Part shown: positions 22,171 through 41,087 of the stretch, piece after piece
Layout: every line of letters starts with the position of its first letter
Position numbering within the stretch: the first letter of the stretch is position 1
Assembly: GCA_902573085.1 (NCBI GenBank)
Contig: CACGHY010000004.1
Coordinates: forward strand, 1-58,664
DNA length: 58,664 nucleotides
Direction of reading: 5' to 3'
DNA from: an uncultured Candidatus Poseidoniales archaeon
GTDB lineage: Archaea > Thermoplasmatota > Poseidoniia > Poseidoniales > Thalassarchaeaceae
Notes under the pieces: generated by a model
Databases searched by the model: none
Told to the model about the DNA's origin: nothing
What the model saw: the letters and a program-made list of their open reading frames with translations, nothing else
Position numbers and translations under genes: made by a program

Positions 22171-22866
22171 ATGAACATCTTCAGTATGCCTAGAAGCCGC
22201 ATTTCTTTGGTGACCTACTCTCTAATATTGCTAACAATATTGTTACCATCCGTAATGGCGGCATCCTCTAGCTCTGGAATTTGGGAGCCGCCAGAGATGC
22301 CCAGCTGGGCAGTGCCTGCATCTTTCGCTATTCTAATCGCGGTCTACACGCTGATTATTTTCGAGGTCGTCCACAGAGCACTTGCTGCTGCACTAGGGGG
22401 GATAGCGGCCGTCGTAACCCTACACGTTGTAGGCGATGGGCCCGACCTTGGAACTATCGTTACCTGGATCGATGAGGAAACAATCGGATTATTGATCGGC
22501 ATGATGGTGATAGTCGACATACTTGGGAAAACAGGAGTATTCGAGTGGGCCGCCGTGCAAGCCTATGCACTTAGTGGGGGTTCCATATGGCGTCTTTCGG
22601 TCATACTCTGTACCATAACAGCTGTGTTTTCCGCCTTCTTAGACAACGTAACGACAATTTTGCTTATCGTTCCAGTTACCATCCAGATTGCCAAGGTCCT
22701 GGACCTAGAACCCGTGCCACTCATTATCGCAGAAGTAATGTTTTCCAACATTGGGGGGGGCAGCAACACAAATCGGGGATCCTCCGAACATCATAATCGG
22801 CGCCCAACTATCTTCACAGGCCCTATCTGGAACCGGTTTAGCAGATCAGGGCATTACGTTCCTTGA
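22171..22866 (+). CDS. ArsB/NhaD/P-protein family permease, 5' part of frameshifted gene
   Basis: N-terminal half of an ion-transporter superfamily permease. It has a signal-like or first hydrophobic segment, then helices near SFAILIAVYTLIIFEVVHRAL and IGLLIGMMVIVDILGKTGVF, and FSAFLDNVTTILLIVPVT, the typical DN-containing re-entrant motif. The frame is genuine to about 22753-22760, an eight-G run; after it the reading becomes SNTNRGSSEHH and stops at 22866. Removing one G restores NIGGAATQIGDPPN, the conserved motif of this family, and joins the frame at 22751-23779. Substrate (Na+/H+ exchange, arsenite or organic anion) cannot be told. Confidence 0.75.
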   Translation: MNIFSMPRSRISLVTYSLILLTILLPSVMAASSSSGIWEPPEMPSWAVPASFAILIAVYTLIIFEVVHRALAAALGGIAAVVTLHVVGDGPDLGTIVTWIDEETIGLLIGMMVIVDILGKTGVFEWAAVQAYALSGGSIWRLSVILCTITAVFSAFLDNVTTILLIVPVTIQIAKVLDLEPVPLIIAEVMFSNIGGGSNTNRGSSEHHNRRPTIFTGPIWNRFSRSGHYVP

Positions 22867-23779
22867 TTTCATCATCCATGTTGGACCAGCTGTGGTAATC
22901 GCGATGGCTCCTTCCTTCTGGTTGCTATCTAAGTTGGAGTCCGACGGACTCTCCGGCGAGAAACATCGGAACGTGGACCTACTGAGGCTCAGATATGGCA
23001 TAAAGGATGTGAATTTGCTGAAGAAATCAGGTTTGATTTTGTCACTAGTCATCATTGCCTTCTTTGCACACTCCGCATTCCACCACCCATTACTTACGGT
23101 CGCAACAATAGCATTGGGAGGTGCGGTTCTGATGCTTTTGGTAACTTCGCCTCACCATGTTGAGGAACAATTAGATGGAGTCGAATGGACAACAATAATT
23201 TTCTTCGCTGGATTATTTATCATGATACACGGTCTTGAAAACATGGGAATGATTGACACTATAGCAGATGGAATTTCTGATACCATAAAGGGAGCCTCAG
23301 AGGAAAACAGACTAATGATATCTGTGCTTCTGCTACTATGGGTGTCAGCGATTGCCTCGGCTTTTATTGATAATATACCATACACGGCTACTATGGTTCC
23401 TGTGGTAATCAAGCTAGCAGAAGATCCAGAATTAGGCTTGCAACTGGGGCCTCTTGCATGGGCATTGGCACTGGGAGCCTGCTTGGGTGGAAACGGCACC
23501 ATAATCGGGGCTTCTGCAAACGTTGTTGCTGCTGGACTCGCGGAGGAATCTGGTCATGACATATCTTTCAATAGATTCTTCAAAACAGGTTATCCAATAA
23601 TGCTCCTGAGTGTAGCTCTGGCGACAGTTTACTGCGTTGTCCGATATGCAATTCAATGGGACAATGGACTAATTCCAGCAACTATCATTGGGGCGATGAT
23701 GTTGGCATCCTTATCCCTAACGCCAATGATATATGGGCCACCGCCAAGAGAGTCTAAGATTGATTATGAGTTGGAGTGA
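22751..23779 (+). CDS. ArsB/NhaD/P-protein family permease, 3' part of frameshifted gene
   Basis: C-terminal half of the permease that begins at 22171. It opens inside the conserved signature (ATQIGDPPNIIIGAQLS) and continues with about seven membrane helices, a second DN motif (SAFIDNIPYTATMVPVVI) and the family signature LGACLGGNGTIIGASANVV, which is especially close to the P-protein (OCA2)/ArsB-NhaD branch. The ORF start codon is incidental; there is no independent initiation signal. Together the two parts would make a protein of about 535 residues, a normal size for the family. The stop overlaps the next small gene by 14 nt. Confidence 0.8.
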   Translation: MGGAATQIGDPPNIIIGAQLSSQALSGTGLADQGITFLDFIIHVGPAVVIAMAPSFWLLSKLESDGLSGEKHRNVDLLRLRYGIKDVNLLKKSGLILSLVIIAFFAHSAFHHPLLTVATIALGGAVLMLLVTSPHHVEEQLDGVEWTTIIFFAGLFIMIHGLENMGMIDTIADGISDTIKGASEENRLMISVLLLLWVSAIASAFIDNIPYTATMVPVVIKLAEDPELGLQLGPLAWALALGACLGGNGTIIGASANVVAAGLAEESGHDISFNRFFKTGYPIMLLSVALATVYCVVRYAIQWDNGLIPATIIGAMMLASLSLTPMIYGPPPRESKIDYELE

Positions 23780-34181: not shown

Positions 34182-34481
34182 TTATTCTTCTTCCCCCGAC
34201 CACGTCCCTTCATCTATTTCCTCCATCCCAACTATCTCGTAGTTTGATGGGAAGAGTGCAATGGCCACTCCAATTACTATGCAAGAGATTCCGAACCAGA
34301 ATGACCCTCTTATCATCAACTCCATTCCAATTGCGAATAGAAAGAGGCCGCCGAGATTAGAAACCCAAACAAGGGTCTTGAAAGTAGACAATGAAACCCC
34401 ACTCGCCCTCTTTGTTCTATGTGGGCCGAATTCTGCCCCGAATCTCAATGGATCATCCTTGCCCATTATATCACCGGTCAA
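34182..34481 (-). CDS. Small two-TM membrane protein
   Basis: About 99 residues (or 94 from the internal ATG). It has two hydrophobic segments, roughly FKTLVWVSNLGGLFLFAIGM and FWFGISCIVIGVAIALF, with an acidic C-terminal tail (EEIDEGTWSGEEE). No family recognised. It sits between the ogt and ferredoxin genes and overlaps the ferredoxin stop by 11 nt, so it is probably co-transcribed with it. Confidence 0.5.
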   Translation of the reverse strand: MTGDIMGKDDPLRFGAEFGPHRTKRASGVSLSTFKTLVWVSNLGGLFLFAIGMELMIRGSFWFGISCIVIGVAIALFPSNYEIVGMEEIDEGTWSGEEE

Positions 34482-34803
34482 TCATAATTATCGCATCGGT
34501 GGGGCAAGCTAATACACAAATCTTGCAACCTGTGCACGGGTCCCTCAGAATTTTCGCTTTTTTATTTACATCCACATCCATAACAGGACTGAGCAGTGGT
34601 GTATCGTACAACTCTATGGCATCGTCCTCACATACTATCGTGCACTGATCGCATCCAATACACAATTCTTCTTTTACCCAAGCAACTGTATCTTCTCCGC
34701 CTTTCAGAAGGGCTTCTTCTTCTGCCCTAACCGAGTTTAATTGCTTCCTGATTCTTGACTGTTCAACAGCCCTTCTCTTGAGCACCTCCTCGGTTTTGGT
34801 CAT
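34471..34803 (-). CDS. Ferredoxin with two [4Fe-4S] clusters
   Basis: Two complete cluster motifs, CIGCDQCTIVCEDD and CTGCKICVLACPTD, in the C-terminal half; the N-terminal 45 residues are a charged helix (MTKTEEVLKRRAVEQSRIR). About 110 residues from the ATG at 34803. The double-cluster fold is that of bacterial-type electron carriers. It lies near the respiratory operon, on the same strand but separated by a convergent small gene, so a partnership with that complex is possible but unproven. Confidence 0.85.
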   Translation of the reverse strand: MTKTEEVLKRRAVEQSRIRKQLNSVRAEEEALLKGGEDTVAWVKEELCIGCDQCTIVCEDDAIELYDTPLLSPVMDVDVNKKAKILRDPCTGCKICVLACPTDAIIMIDR

Positions 34804-34875
34804 GTTACTCGGCCTTTGCATCCAGTCCACCCTTATCATAGTGAGTTTGATTCGCGCGCCTTAAGTCACGGTTAC

Positions 34876-35151
34876 ATGAAACCTAGCTACCCACAGACGT
34901 GGTGGCGCGACCCAATGGTTTGGCTAGGCCTTCTTCACGGCGCTGCAATATGGGCCTTTATGGCATCCTTACTCAGCATTTCATCCGCTTGGATTTCCCT
35001 TGCTTGTGGCTTCTTCATAGGGTTCTTCCTGTACTTGGTAGCCTTGGGATATCAGGACTATCGCTTTGCGAGGGCTATACTTGTAGGCCTCGCGATCAAT
35101 CTCTTCCTTTCTTCGCTCTCTGCTATCATCGCTCTTATGGACCAGTCCTAG
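34876..35151 (+). CDS. Small three-helix membrane protein
   Basis: Frame of 91 residues starting MKPSYPQTWWRDPMVW, divergent from the ferredoxin gene and convergent with the large cytochrome b/Hdr-like gene (4-nt overlap of stops). Three hydrophobic stretches are visible, for example LGLLHGAAIWAFMASLL and FARAILVGLAINLFLSSL. No family recognised. The chosen ATG leaves about 72 nt for a divergent promoter. Confidence 0.5.
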   Translation: MKPSYPQTWWRDPMVWLGLLHGAAIWAFMASLLSISSAWISLACGFFIGFFLYLVALGYQDYRFARAILVGLAINLFLSSLSAIIALMDQS

Positions 35152-37961
35152 TTTTTGGATTCCTCTATCTGCCTGGCCAGGAAGCTCACAACATCAAGAA
35201 TCTCAAAGTCGTGTCTTGGGTCACCCTCGAATTTCAGACACTCGAAGTGTGCAACGCACTTTGGGCATGAGGTGAGCATTATGTCCGCTCCAGTTTCCCT
35301 GACTTCATCGAATCTCTGAACCCTCAGTGCCCTGCTATTCTCGTTGCAGGACATCATGCTTGAGACTCCACAGCATAAGGCATCTTCACCGGTATGCTCC
35401 ATCTCTACCAGATTTACCCCTTCTACAGAGCCTACCAGATCTCGTGGCTCATCGTAGATGTTCATCTGTCTACCCAACCTGCACGGGTCATGGTATGTCA
35501 CAGTGACTTCGTCGTTTGACTTCAGATTCATGTCGAATCCATTCTCAACTAGGAACTCTGTGGTGTGCATCACTTTCATGTCATCCAACTCATAGTCCAG
35601 AGCGAACGTCCTGAAACACTCAGCGCAAGAAGTGACCAATGTTTCAATCCCACTCTCTCCGAGCTTCTTTTGGTTGTATGCCTTTAATTTCTCGAATACC
35701 TCACTCATCCCTTGCCACTTCTGGTCGTGCCCACAGCACTTCAAGAAATCTCGACCCAGGTAGGTGACATCCTCTCCCATTTCCTCGAAAATCGTGAAAG
35801 CTGAAGTCGTAGCATCTCCAAGATCCATCGTTCCTTTGTTCACATGGCTGAAAACCATCTCCTGGTCGATATAATCAACACATCCAGGATAGTATCCTAT
35901 GCTTGAGTCCAACGGGTAATCTTCCACAGGGATGAAAGAATCGTCTGCATCTTCTTCCGCCTCAGCGGCTAATACTGCTTGCAACACCGTGTGCGGTATC
36001 TCCGTGGCAGGAGGCCCACCTACCACAAGGTTCCTTCTTATATCGATGTAAGAGTCGTAATCAACTAATTGTGGACATGCGTTTGTACATGCCGTGCAGG
36101 TCAGGCAGGAGTAAAGTGGAACCCCGTCATCTTCGTTGTTCCACGTATTGTAGATTATGTTGAGTTTATCCCCCGCATTGAACAATCTCACAGGGCAGGC
36201 GTCATCGCACAAATCGCATCCATAGCACTTGTTCATCTCCCACTCGTAGCCACGAGCCATGCTTCTGAGGAACATGAATACCATCGCGCCTACACCGAGG
36301 CACGGTATGAACATCGAGTAAATCAGTTTGGCATCAAGGCTCAGCGGGTTCTTTTGGAAAGTCGGATTTGTCAATGTTAACGAAGCAAGCTCCTCATCGC
36401 TGAGGCTGACTTCAGATCTAACTAGTGCCGTTCCATCTTCTTTGAGAAGTAGAGGCTGGTAGGAAATTGCTGAGAAGTCTGAGATCATTGTGACCGTGTC
36501 ATTGACTTGCTCTGAGATAGTGGTGAAGGAAATCGTGTAAGATCTCCCAGATTCAAGGTAGATTGTGTCAGACTCGCAAGTAGAACCGGAATTCGACCAA
36601 ATTTCTCGGCCCAAATCATCGGTAAGAGTTAGACTCTGAGTGTGGTAACCTGCATTTCGGACGGTTGTCCTGAAGTTGCAACCTATGTCTGTCTGAACTT
36701 CCGAAATTCCGAGGTCTTCAACCTCGAACTGGATGGATTCCGAAATCGAGATAGGGCTGCCGTCTTCCTCTCCTTGGTAGATGATTTCATTGGCCCCTAT
36801 ATTTCTGGATGTTTGCGTATCGGCGTGCCCATTAACCCCGCTGAAGTCTATTATCTGACTACGAGTAGGTTGGAAGATCCCCCAGTTGACAAAATGCTTC
36901 GCGGGTAATACACACCATTCAGAATGCGTCGTACCCTCTTCCATAGTTTCCCAGACAGACAAGGAATCTGTCTCCTCGTATGATAGGCATTCTTCCTCCC
37001 AGTCGTCCCACACAGGTCCCTTTTCAACGTGTATTAAAGAGTCTGCAGGCTGACCTCTTATCCTATCCAACTCGTCGAGCTTGGCATCGTATTGGTACTC
37101 CCAGAATCCCATTGTCCCCAGTCCCCTTTGATTCCAGAAACCATTCTCGTAGACCGGCCAAGTGACCGTGCAGAGTAGAACAGTTGCGATCAAAGATCCG
37201 ACGGCCACCTGTCTACCGAGAATTGGAGTCAACCGAGAACCCATCGGACCGATCAAGAATTTCCTAACCGAGAAATAAAGCACAACGAAGACGAAGACGC
37301 CAGTAAGGATCCATGGAACCGCATTGAAAACTTCGGCAGTCCATGGTGGCTGAGTACCGCAGTTGAATGTTCCATGAGGGCCAATCCAGCAGTAGTCCGT
37401 TCGATTCTGACCATACATTTCCAGGAAGATGTTTATCGAGAATACAGAAATAAACCACACATGCGCTAAGTATACGGCTCCCGCTGTAGCGAACCACGGA
37501 TCCTCGACACCCCTCTTCTCCCTTTTTCCGATAATGAATGGTGGAAGTGCGAGAATGGCCACAGGAACCCCAGTGATCATCGCACCCCACACCCCCGCAT
37601 TCCAAGAAACGATAGGCTGTCCGAAGAACTCACCTATCGGACCAGCAGGGATGTCGAACTGCGGCAAATACTCGCCCCACCTAAGGTATCCGTAAGAGAA
37701 CAGAACGTACCAATCAGGGAAGACGAAACCAGCCTGAGCGTAGGGATCTGCAGCGTTGTGTAAGGGCGGGGGGATGATCCAAGAATAGAATGCTATGACC
37801 ATTACTATCGAGGCGAAAATAATCGTATCTCTGAGAACTTCAGTAGGCCAGAAACCATGACCTGTGTGCACTCTTCTCCTTTCTTCCTCAGCACCAAGCA
37901 ATTGCTCTTTCTCGCTGACATAAGTGTCGGCAATCCTTCCAAATCTTTCAATCAGACCCAT
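35148..37961 (-). CDS. Cytochrome b C-terminal domain fused to HdrD/GlpC-like Fe-S protein
   Basis: A 937-residue chimera. Residues about 45-250 are membrane helices related to the C-terminal half of cytochrome b / subunit IV: FPDWYVLFSYGYLRW at about 81-95 corresponds to the PEWY quinol-site motif. An extracytoplasmic beta-rich insertion of about 290 residues follows, then another helix (about 548-566). The C-terminal 365 residues are cytoplasmic and HdrD/GlpC-like: two 4Fe-4S motifs (CYGCDLCDDACP, CLTCTACTNACP) and two CCG domains (GYYPGCVDY with FLKCCGHD; YHDPCRLGR with ALCCGVSS). It is the last of five genes in a respiratory operon and follows cytochrome b by 9 nt. It may couple membrane quinol chemistry to a soluble electron carrier; direction is unknown. 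Confidence 0.85.
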   Translation of the reverse strand: MGLIERFGRIADTYVSEKEQLLGAEEERRRVHTGHGFWPTEVLRDTIIFASIVMVIAFYSWIIPPPLHNAADPYAQAGFVFPDWYVLFSYGYLRWGEYLPQFDIPAGPIGEFFGQPIVSWNAGVWGAMITGVPVAILALPPFIIGKREKRGVEDPWFATAGAVYLAHVWFISVFSINIFLEMYGQNRTDYCWIGPHGTFNCGTQPPWTAEVFNAVPWILTGVFVFVVLYFSVRKFLIGPMGSRLTPILGRQVAVGSLIATVLLCTVTWPVYENGFWNQRGLGTMGFWEYQYDAKLDELDRIRGQPADSLIHVEKGPVWDDWEEECLSYEETDSLSVWETMEEGTTHSEWCVLPAKHFVNWGIFQPTRSQIIDFSGVNGHADTQTSRNIGANEIIYQGEEDGSPISISESIQFEVEDLGISEVQTDIGCNFRTTVRNAGYHTQSLTLTDDLGREIWSNSGSTCESDTIYLESGRSYTISFTTISEQVNDTVTMISDFSAISYQPLLLKEDGTALVRSEVSLSDEELASLTLTNPTFQKNPLSLDAKLIYSMFIPCLGVGAMVFMFLRSMARGYEWEMNKCYGCDLCDDACPVRLFNAGDKLNIIYNTWNNEDDGVPLYSCLTCTACTNACPQLVDYDSYIDIRRNLVVGGPPATEIPHTVLQAVLAAEAEEDADDSFIPVEDYPLDSSIGYYPGCVDYIDQEMVFSHVNKGTMDLGDATTSAFTIFEEMGEDVTYLGRDFLKCCGHDQKWQGMSEVFEKLKAYNQKKLGESGIETLVTSCAECFRTFALDYELDDMKVMHTTEFLVENGFDMNLKSNDEVTVTYHDPCRLGRQMNIYDEPRDLVGSVEGVNLVEMEHTGEDALCCGVSSMMSCNENSRALRVQRFDEVRETGADIMLTSCPKCVAHFECLKFEGDPRHDFEILDVVSFLARQIEESKN

Positions 37962-37970
37962 TCAATCACC

Positions 37971-38852
37971 TCAGTGCGGCTCCGCAATCCCTTGAACCCA
38001 GACGATGAATAGGTGGGTCAGAATAAGAACTGTAACAATTAGCGGTAGTACGAAAACGTGTAGGAAGTACATCCTGACAACTGTCTGGCCCGTCAGTGTC
38101 GTCCCACCAAACATAGCATTAGCCACCCATTCCCCAATCAGCGGAGTAGCCATTGCCATGTTGATTCCTATGGTGGCAGCTCCGAAGGCCAGGCTGTCCC
38201 AAGGCAACAAATAACCTGAGTAACCGAAGAATATCGAGAAAAACATTAGAGCTACTCCGATCAACCAATTGAGCTCTCTAGGGTTTCTATATGCCCCAGT
38301 GAAATAGACTCTGCACATGTGCAGAAATACCGCGGCCACGAAAAAGTGCGTGGTCCAATGGTGGACAGATCTGATGATGTATCCGAAGGGAAGCTCTAGC
38401 ATGATAAACTCCATTGATGCGTAGGCTGGGGTTGGATCTGAGTCCAAATCCCCTCCTGGTACGTAGTAAAATCCTAGAATGGTGCCGCTAATGACCAAGA
38501 TTATGAATGCCAAGAATGAAATTCCGCCCAAGCAATACAGGGGGTACCAATACCAGATTATTCTCAGTTTATACTTCTCAGCGTGGGTCAATGGCATCTG
38601 GCGATGCATGCTGTAATAGGAGTCTTTGGACATGCCCCAGTAGTCCTGAATCCTGAATCTAGTATCTAGCCAAGAGAAAGCCCACAGGAACAACTTCTCG
38701 GCAAGACCCATGCTACCAGCATTTGTTTCCACGGCCCTTAGAATGTCCTTTCTCGGCATGTCATCCCTCTCTCTTCTGAGCGTGAAGGCTACAATTACGA
38801 CCACGAAGGCTATGAAGATCCACAGGAACCAGAATTGAATCATTTTTATCAC
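37971..38852 (-). CDS. Cytochrome b, N-terminal (b6-type)
   Basis: Di-heme membrane subunit of a Rieske/cytochrome b complex. The four heme ligands are visible in two helices: HHWTTHFFVAAVFLHM (first His of the pair to the last is H-x13-H) and LHVFVLPLIVTVLILTH (H-x14-H). The 14-residue spacing in the second helix is the cytochrome b6 pattern. GYSGYLLPWDSLAFGA is the conserved helix C-cd region. An additional hydrophobic helix (residues about 5-23) precedes the core. At 293 residues only the heme-bearing half is present; the quinol-site half is in the following gene. The stop of the Rieske gene directly abuts this start. Confidence 0.93.
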   Translation of the reverse strand: MIKMIQFWFLWIFIAFVVVIVAFTLRRERDDMPRKDILRAVETNAGSMGLAEKLFLWAFSWLDTRFRIQDYWGMSKDSYYSMHRQMPLTHAEKYKLRIIWYWYPLYCLGGISFLAFIILVISGTILGFYYVPGGDLDSDPTPAYASMEFIMLELPFGYIIRSVHHWTTHFFVAAVFLHMCRVYFTGAYRNPRELNWLIGVALMFFSIFFGYSGYLLPWDSLAFGAATIGINMAMATPLIGEWVANAMFGGTTLTGQTVVRMYFLHVFVLPLIVTVLILTHLFIVWVQGIAEPH

Positions 38853-39701
38853 CTAACCGCAGAACGTGTACCAATCCATAAAATCCGGAAGCGCCTCTAT
38901 CAATCCATCATTCACTTTGAATGGGATCAGCGGCATTCCATACGGAGCCGGACCACCGGTCTTCTTTACACCTATGAAGTCGAATTCTTGTCCATTTGAC
39001 CTGTTTCTTGCTGTATTTTTCTCTATTACGGTGTGGTCATACCTGCTGGAGTGACAGATGCAGAATGATTTGTTTCCGCTAGTGTCGGTCCCACCAGGTA
39101 ACCAGGTATCCGCTGTGTAGTCGTTACTAACGAGTTGCCACCCTGGAATGCAACACAAGTGAGGGCATCTGGCGAAAGCAATAATCAAGTTGTCATGGAT
39201 GTTCAATGATGCGTATTCTTCTTTTTCTTCGATTTCAAAGCCGGATCCTACGTATGCGCCACCAGCGGTGTATCCATCCATCAACTGGAACCTTGGGGTG
39301 CCTGCTTCTAATGGCTTGTTTTTGTTTTCCTCATGCGGGACGTATGTGGCTATGATGGGTAAGCCGGACCAAAGCCCCGCAGCTCCGACCATTCCGGTGG
39401 TCGTGTTCGCGGACTCGTCTACGAAAGATTGCAATGTCATGGGCTGTTTGTCCATGCTGCTGTACCACACATCAGAACCCTTGGGGACATAGAATTTTAC
39501 CGCAGAGTCAGACGCCCCTCCCTCTGCTTGACCCATTAAGAAGGAAGCGAATCCCACAGAGCCTAGTGCAGCTGTAGTAATCAGTCCTGCCGATGTATTG
39601 AAAGATAGCCTCATGAACTCCCTTCTGTCTATTCCGCCGCTCCTCTCGTGAATAGCATCACTCTGGGAGGAGATAGGACGTAGCTTAAATTTCCTTGCCA
39701 T
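38853..39701 (-). CDS. Rieske iron-sulfur protein
   Basis: High-potential [2Fe-2S] subunit taking electrons from quinol. The cluster motifs are CPHLCCIPGW and CICHSSRYD, with two Cys and two His ligands and the extra Cys pair that forms the stabilising disulfide. The N-terminus has a twin-arginine-type signal/anchor (DRREFMRLSFNTSAGLITTA), as normal for Rieske proteins. The region between the motifs is long (about 45 residues, containing TWLPGGTDTSGN). The ATG at 39701 is preferred over the upstream TTG at 39725, which overlaps the preceding gene. About 282 residues. Located between the two-TM protein and cytochrome b genes. Confidence 0.92.
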   Translation of the reverse strand: MARKFKLRPISSQSDAIHERSGGIDRREFMRLSFNTSAGLITTAALGSVGFASFLMGQAEGGASDSAVKFYVPKGSDVWYSSMDKQPMTLQSFVDESANTTTGMVGAAGLWSGLPIIATYVPHEENKNKPLEAGTPRFQLMDGYTAGGAYVGSGFEIEEKEEYASLNIHDNLIIAFARCPHLCCIPGWQLVSNDYTADTWLPGGTDTSGNKSFCICHSSRYDHTVIEKNTARNRSNGQEFDFIGVKKTGGPAPYGMPLIPFKVNDGLIEALPDFMDWYTFCG

Positions 39702-39703
39702 TT

Positions 39704-40153
39704 TCAGACCTCGTACTTTTTCCAAGAATTAGTGTCATGATTAGTTATGTATTTGTTTCTCCTATGCTTGACAATCACCACATCAGGCAGGACGTATTTT
39801 AGGTACACAATCCCCAAGATTATCAGTGTAAGTAGCGTCATTGCCAAATTAAATGCAAGCAATTGTTGATCCCACTCCTGATACAATCCATATGCTAATG
39901 CGCCAGCCCAATAGAGGGTCCATAGAATGCCCCAAAGACCCACTATTATGATCAGCCAAGAATCCCCAGAAGGCGCCAGACTTGCTCTTACAATAGTCCC
40001 GGGCTTGACTTCATTGAATACTCCGTGATTCACGGCAGCTTCGAAGGACTCCTCTGTTAATGAAGCATCTTCGAGTGCCACTCTTGCGTCTTCGACACTG
40101 ACCTTTCCGGCCTTTACCTCTCGTAGCAGCCTCATAACTACATCGTCTTTCAT
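39704..40153 (-). CDS. Two-TM protein of the Rieske/cytochrome b operon
   Basis: 149 residues. The N-terminal 55 residues are soluble and helical (MKDDVVMRLLREVKAGKVS), followed by two membrane helices (SWLIIIVGLWGILWTLYWAGAL and AFNLAMTLLTLIILGIVYL) and a basic tail (KHRRNKY). No cofactor motif is seen. Overlaps the upstream gene by 4 nt and is adjacent to the Rieske gene, so it is probably a structural or assembly subunit of the complex. Unrecognised family. Confidence 0.55.
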   Translation of the reverse strand: MKDDVVMRLLREVKAGKVSVEDARVALEDASLTEESFEAAVNHGVFNEVKPGTIVRASLAPSGDSWLIIIVGLWGILWTLYWAGALAYGLYQEWDQQLLAFNLAMTLLTLIILGIVYLKYVLPDVVIVKHRRNKYITNHDTNSWKKYEV

Positions 40154-40953
40154 AGTTGATCACCTCTTCTCAGATGTTTAATCCTAAGTTTTAGTAAGTT
40201 GCTTCTTCCTTTGTAGTTCCTGGAGAAACCGTATCTAAGGAATAGGCCGCAGAAGAAGATCACCAGTATAACTGCCCCAAAGCCAAGGATTCCCAACCAG
40301 TGGGCTTTGAGCTTAGCTCCCATTTTGTGGATGTCTTTCTTTCCTTCAATCGGTGCTGGTGGATTTATGTCACCGTTTCCTGAAAAAACGGTTTTTGTTC
40401 TTCCGCTATCTTCACCCTCGTCAATGCTGGTCGTTAGACGATTCCAACGGTCTAGACTAGATGGGGCTAAATCTCCGTTTACCGAGTTGCCTGCAACATT
40501 GAAAACCACTGATCCCGAGCCTTCGGACGGACTGGTCCAGACAAACATCCACGACCTATCGGGGGTTCTCGAGCCTGCATCGGTGTGTGTTAAGCTGGAT
40601 GCATCTCCCTCCCAATTCTCAACCATTGACTCGAATCCTTCCGAGGCGCTGAGCGACCCTTGGGTAACAGTCATTGCAAATCCGGCCGTGTGCGAATCGA
40701 GATTCGCGTCCGGACCGCCGATTAATTGCAACTTCATTTCGTAGGAAGTATCTGGGGCATAGTGGAACGGTACCCCATCGATGATGACGGTAACAGAATT
40801 GTCAGGCTCCTCGGCATGACAAGTGCATCCGGCGATTGAAACTTCTCCCTGTCCGTTTGCGTTTCCGCCAACTCCACTGTGCAGAGCTTCACTAGACCCC
40901 GCCACGAATAACGATAGGATTATCAGAGTGAATATCTTACGTTGTGTAGCCAT
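40150..40953 (-). CDS. Exported Reeler-like domain protein with C-x-C-H motif
   Basis: First gene of the operon. Signal peptide (RKIFTLIILSLFVAGSSEA), then a domain resembling Reeler/choice-of-anchor-V sequences: GCTCHAEEPDNSVTV near the start, FHYAPDTSYEMKLQLIGG, a SLTHTDAGSR segment and WMFVWTSPSEGSGSVVF, NVAGNSVNGD. A C-terminal membrane helix (LGILGFGAVILVIFFCGLFL) and basic tail follow. The Cys-Thr-Cys-His string is not a standard CxxCH heme site, so a covalent c-type heme is uncertain. As the exported, lead gene of a Rieske/cytochrome b operon it could be an electron acceptor or structural subunit. The ATG at 40971 would add six residues. Confidence 0.6.
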   Translation of the reverse strand: MATQRKIFTLIILSLFVAGSSEALHSGVGGNANGQGEVSIAGCTCHAEEPDNSVTVIIDGVPFHYAPDTSYEMKLQLIGGPDANLDSHTAGFAMTVTQGSLSASEGFESMVENWEGDASSLTHTDAGSRTPDRSWMFVWTSPSEGSGSVVFNVAGNSVNGDLAPSSLDRWNRLTTSIDEGEDSGRTKTVFSGNGDINPPAPIEGKKDIHKMGAKLKAHWLGILGFGAVILVIFFCGLFLRYGFSRNYKGRSNLLKLRIKHLRRGDQL

Positions 40954-41087
40954 TTTTGCCCCCCCAGCCATTTGTTAATATTCACCAGAAAAAAGGGGGA
41001 TATGAACCTTACACTACAGCCCCTTCGGAGCTGCGTAGTAATATCGTTTTTCAAAAAATTCAAAGGCATCGCTCGACATTAGAGAAT

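Follow-up and report, generated by a model that had tools for sequence, protein, structure and literature searches.

An Hdr-like iron-sulfur arm joined covalently to a Rieske/cytochrome b6-type complex in Poseidoniales archaea and its probable link to the ferredoxin pool

In the textbook complex III, electrons move only between quinone and an extracytoplasmic acceptor. The stretch of 58,664 nucleotides analyzed here (the window; contig CACGHY010000004.1 of assembly GCA_902573085.1, from an uncultured Candidatus Poseidoniales archaeon) encodes on its minus strand a chain of 937 amino acids, starting with an ATG at 37961 and containing no internal stop, in which the C-terminal half of a cytochrome b is fused to an iron-sulfur module of the heterodisulfide reductase (Hdr) type (Table 1). 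A preliminary description proposed that this chain is part of a Rieske/cytochrome b complex bearing an Hdr-like arm in the cytoplasm, and conserved gene order, predicted topology, cluster ligands and phylogeny support this proposal well. The arm probably connects the respiratory chain to the ferredoxin pool, unlike an ordinary complex III. The complete reading, in which the fused chain would be the large subunit of a quinol-oxidizing complex of the Rieske/cytochrome b6 type, with the Hdr arm wired to ferredoxin and a net flow toward menaquinone, is given about an even chance of being correct.

In the fused chain, Pfam searches identified two CCG domains (E 9.4e-23), preceded at residues 575-631 by a 4Fe-4S dicluster, in agreement with the earlier statement that both kinds of iron-sulfur motif occur twice in a single chain, and gave no match at gathering score for residues 1-570. 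A profile of the membrane part, built from nine diverse aligned homologs, matched in the PDB the C-terminal half of actinobacterial cytochrome b (best E 8.8e-9) and subunit IV of cytochrome b6f (E 8.8e-5), and the Pfam family Cytochrom_B_C was matched by seven of nine family members (best 1.1e-10) and weakly by the window protein alone (E 0.038). The assignment of this part as a cytochrome b C-terminal half, with FPDWYVLF (residues 81-88) as the equivalent of PEWY, thus holds. Six transmembrane helices were predicted from hydropathy, with an extracytoplasmic loop of about 277 residues between helices 5 and 6, close to the insertion of about 290 residues, followed by a further helix, that had been noted before. 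The Lys/Arg-rich loops 144-158 and 232-252 lie on one side by the same prediction and the PDWY loop and the insert on the other, and the Fe-S arm is thus predicted, also by the positive-inside rule, to lie in the cytoplasm. In homologs that lack the insert, the number of helices before the Fe-S part appears even in the alignment, the automatic helix count being noisy. Structure prediction of the fused chain from the single sequence was useless (mean predicted local distance difference test score, pLDDT, 37), whereas AlphaFold2 with a 55-sequence alignment gave a usable CCG part (pLDDT about 90) and a usable sandwich in the insert, a middling membrane part and a poor Fe-S dicluster. A fold search with the insert model returned generic beta-sandwiches and no informative match.

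The genes for a b6-type cytochrome b and a Rieske protein lie directly upstream of the fused chain, as described previously. The cytochrome b heme ligands H164, H178, H265 and H280 are kept in every aligned sequence, the two histidines of helix D (H265 and H280) are 15 residues apart, which is the b6-type spacing, and C107 falls in the alignment at the heme ci-binding cysteine of b6. This cysteine is kept in all lineages except one clade of Marine Group III (MGIII), where 16 sequences have serine. The Rieske assignment is weak by profile, with no Pfam match and a modest TIGR01416 score, yet the CxH/CxxH ligands are conserved throughout. The split into b6-like and subunit IV-like halves, the heme ci cysteine, the PDWY motif and the Rieske protein are all shared with cytochrome b6f, but b6f has no arm, and no recognizable cytochrome f was found in the Poseidoniales cluster. 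The sole candidate for a subunit of the cytochrome c1/f type is the choice_anch_V protein, which contains GCxCH instead of CxxCH and is a candidate electron acceptor of the Rieske protein.

The sample comprised 243 Thermoplasmatota genomes, 64 of them Poseidoniales. The fused chain occurs as an uninterrupted frame in 55 of the 64 Poseidoniales genomes, with 61-94% identity and including the single-contig genome G015; most of the remaining nine are cut by contig ends, two (G078 and G209) have a frame break, and a few give partial matches. Cytochrome b was found in 39 of 40 Poseidoniales genomes, as a single copy in 38, and it adjoins the fused chain wherever both are listed; this complex is therefore taken as the only complex III of the order. 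A search for the same domain order in Poseidoniales and other genomes showed that the general gene order is choice_anch_V protein, DUF7318-like protein, Rieske protein, cytochrome b, subunit IV with 4Fe-4S dicluster, CCG part and carrier. Full fusions are present in Poseidoniales and, in their own forms without the insert, in nzgw66 and in the CSMAG_327/707 genomes. MGIII and soil or sediment Thermoplasmatota (EA_*, RBG_16_67_27) have the same cluster, with subunit IV fused to the 4Fe-4S dicluster only and the CCG gene next door; the full fusion is therefore a lineage trait. The insert, which is also missing from MGIII, is specific to Poseidoniales. No cytochrome b was found in family f16, and a scan of viral contigs found nothing. 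In CSMAG and nzgw66 (L032/L064 413-3610 (+), L031/L067), the N-terminal half of cytochrome b begins with a long extracytoplasmic extension, in which domains of Ig-like appearance are repeated and which perhaps replaces a separate extracytoplasmic subunit.

The PDWY motif is invariant in all five lineages, and the eight dicluster cysteines are kept across the family except in one sequence at a frame break. The five cysteines of the second CCG domain are present in every complete bc-linked sequence, and those of the first are present in Poseidoniales, nzgw66 and CSMAG; alignment thus answered the question of whether the CCG region of the window protein has its cluster ligands, as all ten are there. 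In the first domain, C743 is replaced by Ser in surface MGIII, and C782, which by motif matches the bridging cysteine C81 of HdrB (PMC13083937), is replaced by Gly in soil Thermoplasmatota and deep MGIII. It was also observed that the heme ci cysteine and C743 are both Ser in the same clade, surface MGIII (L035, L036, L100, L113, L118, and others), hinting from this one clade that heme ci and the first non-cubane cluster may be functionally linked.

Maximum-likelihood analysis of 82 CCG modules united the cytochrome-linked ones in a single clade with soluble HdrD-like proteins of ANME-2/Methanoperedens (support 100/99), well apart from EtfD-like proteins; fused and split lineages are interleaved in the tree. 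The best PDB match of the arm by sequence is EtfD (9ojn, E 2e-21), which is also the top fold match of the CCG part (E 2e-12); the fold of this part also matches LutA and HdrB (5odc_B, E 3e-7). The arm has the motifs CC and CAEC, and a Glu replaces His583, a cluster ligand of EtfD (PMC13083937).

The gene that follows the arm encodes a low-potential carrier module in each lineage: an RnfB-like 2[4Fe-4S] protein in Poseidoniales and soil Thermoplasmatota, a polyferredoxin in nzgw66 and deep MGIII, a flavodoxin-2[4Fe-4S] protein in surface MGIII (L037), and an HdrA-FlpD-like protein in CSMAG. In Poseidoniales, the RnfB-like gene lies within 1.5 kb of the arm in 26 of 30 loci and on the same strand in 23. 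A 2-oxoacid:ferredoxin oxidoreductase was found in 39 of 40 Poseidoniales genomes and NuoF in only three of 40, and ferredoxin therefore looks like a main carrier. The absence of NuoF, the NADH-binding 51-kDa subunit, from the other 37 genomes is at odds with the canonical NADH dehydrogenase described for Marine Group II (MGII; PMC6336850), and Poseidoniales complex I may be ferredoxin-driven. The preliminary description had left the cytoplasmic carrier open between thiol/disulfide, ferredoxin and an organic acid; the carrier gene of each lineage and the ferredoxin-centered metabolism speak for ferredoxin, and the thiol/disulfide option is weakened by the loss of one first-CCG cysteine in MGIII and soil relatives.

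In the favored mechanism, the arm would be a wire that conducts single electrons between a low-potential ferredoxin, which would be the RnfB-like protein encoded beside the arm, and heme bH/ci and the Qn site on the cytoplasmic face of cytochrome b. The likeliest net flow would run from ferredoxin through the arm and heme ci/bH to menaquinone, so that for each quinone reduced at Qn one electron would come from ferredoxin and one from the quinol oxidized at Qo, while the Rieske branch would lead to the extracytoplasmic acceptor and oxygen. The scheme resembles the one proposed for ferredoxin-dependent cyclic electron flow through b6f. The net direction cannot be read from sequence, but ferredoxin input at the cytoplasmic quinone site is most likely: reduced ferredoxin is a product of the metabolism, the heme pair of the n-side is located at this site, and Diamond et al. 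(2022; PMC9038741) independently arrived at this idea for Angelarchaeales, in which hdrD-like and rnfB-like genes lie near complex III and a ferredoxin entry point was suggested. The gene set there (Rieske, cytochrome b, HdrD-like and RnfB-like) is that of the Poseidoniales cluster, and the soil loci L101, L107, L111, L112 and L133, which show it, likely represent the Angelarchaeales lineage; they differ from Poseidoniales in having a separate CCG gene, Gly at the position of C782 and no insert of about 275 amino acids. That study describes gene proximity in one genome, and neither a fused subunit nor a family. The one-chain form appears to be undescribed so far, as neither it nor the wider family was found in the literature searched, which covered few subscription papers and is weak evidence of absence.

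Several points weigh against ferredoxin input. Two complete CCG clusters exceed the needs of a simple ferredoxin wire, ferredoxin feeding into complex III would bypass the pumping of complex I, and surface MGIII, in which Cys is changed to Ser, should be unable to form heme ci but keeps the arm. Several f2 loci, moreover, depart from the usual arrangement: in L026, L029 and L030 the RnfB-like gene runs on the opposite strand, and in L025, L027 and L028 none lies within 1.5 kb.

Electron bifurcation between the Rieske and Hdr branches, which had also been suggested, is possible on the same gene set. In this scheme, the quinol oxidized at Qo would give one electron to the Rieske protein and oxygen and the other, via bL, bH and the Hdr arm, to ferredoxin. 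Both the exergonic branch and the proton-motive force, to which proteorhodopsin light would contribute, would drive this transfer. The scheme would use the same parts as ferredoxin input, an HdrA-FlpD-like gene stands beside the arm in CSMAG genomes, and for the Rieske/cytochrome b complexes of anammox bacteria (Kuste4569-4574 and Kustd1480-1485), which carry cytoplasmic FeS/FAD arms, it has been proposed that quinol oxidation branches toward an acceptor in the cytoplasm and yields NAD(P)H (PMC12954380). These complexes likewise have a b6-type cytochrome b, an enlarged subunit IV and a cytoplasmic FeS-containing arm. However, the anammox arm is an FAD/NAD(P) oxidoreductase encoded by separate genes, with multiheme cytochromes on the positive side, whereas the Poseidoniales arm is a flavin-free HdrCB module within the subunit IV chain: by Pfam, neither the fused chain nor the adjacent Poseidoniales genes have an FAD/NAD domain, and flavin modules of the family are confined to HdrA-FlpD in CSMAG and the flavodoxin domain in MGIII. 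Electron transfer from menaquinol (about -70 mV, PMC12954380) to ferredoxin would be strongly uphill, a functional Qn site would compete, and there is little evident need for it, as Poseidoniales already reduce ferredoxin by 2-oxoacid:ferredoxin oxidoreductase. Net quinol-driven reduction of ferredoxin is considered rather improbable, although it is the strongest of the alternatives.

A quinol-dependent disulfide reductase, in which cytochrome b electrons would pass through two non-cubane clusters to a low-molecular-weight or protein disulfide, as HdrD/HdrB do with CoM-S-S-CoB, is unlikely. The complete set of CCG cysteines in Poseidoniales, nzgw66 and CSMAG, the HdrB-like and EtfD-like fold and the grouping of the arm with the ANME-2 proteins would suit such an activity, and the HdrC-like dicluster and HdrB-like double CCG domain recall HdrDE/HdrBC. 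However, the complex is retained in surface MGIII without C743 and in soil Thermoplasmatota and deep MGIII without C782, and because the latter occupies the position of the bridging cysteine, disulfide chemistry is unlikely as a family-wide function. The cluster contains no recognizable thiol-pathway gene. In contrast to Hdr, the arm has neither an HdrE-type cytochrome b partner nor a soluble HdrABC assembly, its membrane part being subunit IV, and is tied to Rieske/cytochrome b; a heterodisulfide substrate is not expected.

Oxidation of electron transfer flavoprotein (ETF), with electrons passing from acyl-CoA dehydrogenases through ETF and an EtfD-like arm to cytochrome b, was our initial favorite. 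The arm's closest PDB match is EtfD, and ETF was found in 48 of 50 Poseidoniales genomes, canonical ETF:quinone oxidoreductase in only 3-4 of 50. Mycobacterial EtfD (PMC13083937) also combines a membrane domain, two cubane [4Fe-4S] clusters and two CCG domains in one chain that forms a cytoplasmic wire to menaquinone. It has, however, its own heme b domain of five transmembrane helices, a linear [3Fe-4S] cluster in which Thr takes the place of the second Cys, and a His as ligand, whereas the Poseidoniales chain has a cytochrome b subunit IV at its N-terminus, Hdr-type CCG motifs (CC/CAEC), Glu at the His583 position and a place in another clade. A separate EtfD-like protein of about 665 amino acids with the EtfD-type residues CSG and CPHC was read in three Poseidoniales genomes (L150:4723-6723, L151:3992-5980, L154:4576-6582), with further matches of about 665-680 amino acids in others. 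It is probably, by these residues, the ETF:quinone oxidoreductase of Poseidoniales; because it is present, ETF oxidation does not require the Hdr-like arm. This protein and the tree separating EtfD-like proteins from the arm led us to demote the ETF hypothesis, which is now considered very unlikely. As a separate observation, L152:605-9001 (G206) and L034:2129-10001 (G003) contain HdrA-like, HdrB-like and HdrD-like genes beside EtfB/EtfA-like genes and a further Fe-S membrane protein, the HdrD-like protein having lost the first-CCG ligands; the cluster appears to be a distinct ETF-Hdr system and is present in one genome each of Poseidoniales and MGIII.

Finally, an assembly or annotation artefact that wrongly joined two adjacent genes, which the two-frame chains of G078 and G209 and the two genes of MGIII might suggest, was rejected as next to impossible on the strength of the intact frames, and the fusion is real.

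The remaining genes of the cluster are listed in Table 1. The GC-x-CH motif of the choice_anch_V protein, which is invariant in its homologs (L035, L042, L104, and others), is one residue short of the canonical CxxCH c-heme site; it is possibly an unusual heme or metal site, in a Rieske partner. CcmF/CcsA-type proteins are present in 30 of 30 Poseidoniales, despite this non-canonical motif. In the window genome, the fused chain and the RnfB-like gene are separated by a hydrophobic open reading frame of about 91 amino acids (34879-35151 (+)) in tail-to-tail orientation. Elsewhere in the window, at 22171-23779 (+), two overlapping open reading frames in different frames resemble a single antiporter of the NhaD/CitM type split by a frameshift or sequencing error.

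Table 1. Features of the Rieske/cytochrome b gene cluster in the window.
Feature	Position	Strand	Basis
Fused chain: subunit IV-like cytochrome b C-terminal half, extracytoplasmic insert and HdrCB/HdrD-like cytoplasmic arm	35148..37961	-	Single open reading frame
Cytochrome b C-terminal half, helices E-H, residues 36-236	37254..37856	-	Family profile vs PDB; Pfam Cytochrom_B_C
PDWY motif, quinol oxidation (Qo/Qp) site, residues 82-85	37707..37718	-	Invariance across lineages; predicted extracytoplasmic loop
Poseidoniales-specific extracytoplasmic insert, residues 271-545, with predicted beta-sandwich at 391-501	36327..37151	-	Homolog alignment, hydropathy, AlphaFold2 model
Two [4Fe-4S] motifs, HdrC-like, residues 575-632	36066..36239	-	Pfam Fer4_9/Fer4_8; 8 conserved Cys
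First CCG domain: C694, C742, C743, C779, C782	35604..35894	-	Pfam CCG; ligand table
Second CCG domain: C827, C863, C864, C899, C902	35244..35501	-	Pfam CCG; ligand table
Cytochrome b N-terminal half, b6 type	37971..38852	-	Pfam Cytochrome_B E 5e-41; PDB cytochrome b6 E 6e-41
Rieske iron-sulfur protein, CPHLCC...CICHSS	38853..39725	-	TIGR01416 E 3e-8; ligands conserved in all lineages
Small membrane protein, DUF7318-like	39704..40153	-	Pfam DUF7318 E 1e-5, just under cut-off; conserved in cluster
choice_anch_V protein, membrane-anchored, extracytoplasmic, GCxCH motif	40150..40971	-	NCBIfam choice_anch_V E 1e-23; motif conserved
RnfB-like 2[4Fe-4S] ferredoxin, candidate redox partner of the arm	34471..34839	-	Pfam Fer4; top NCBIfam match RnfB
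Small membrane protein after the RnfB-like gene	34182..34481	-	Homolog follows RnfB-like gene in most Poseidoniales loci

An abundant order of marine archaea thus has, as its sole complex III, one that is joined in a single chain to a cytoplasmic iron-sulfur module of the Hdr type. This accounts for two puzzles of MGII reported by Tully (2019; PMC6336850), namely an orphan RnfB and the occurrence of cytochrome b and Rieske protein although no canonical complex III is present. It gives a natural and testable model of how ferredoxin could feed a b6-type complex, a matter that is also unsettled in the cyclic electron flow of plants, where the ferredoxin-dependent route is still unidentified (PMC10931702). 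It also offers a model for the bifurcation proposed for anammox bacteria, in which a bc-type complex would deliver electrons to a low-potential carrier. It is about as likely as not that this complex III carries out quinone-based electron bifurcation or confurcation with ferredoxin by means of its covalent Hdr arm; if so, the one complex III of these abundant aerobic marine archaea would exchange electrons directly with the low-potential cytoplasmic pool.

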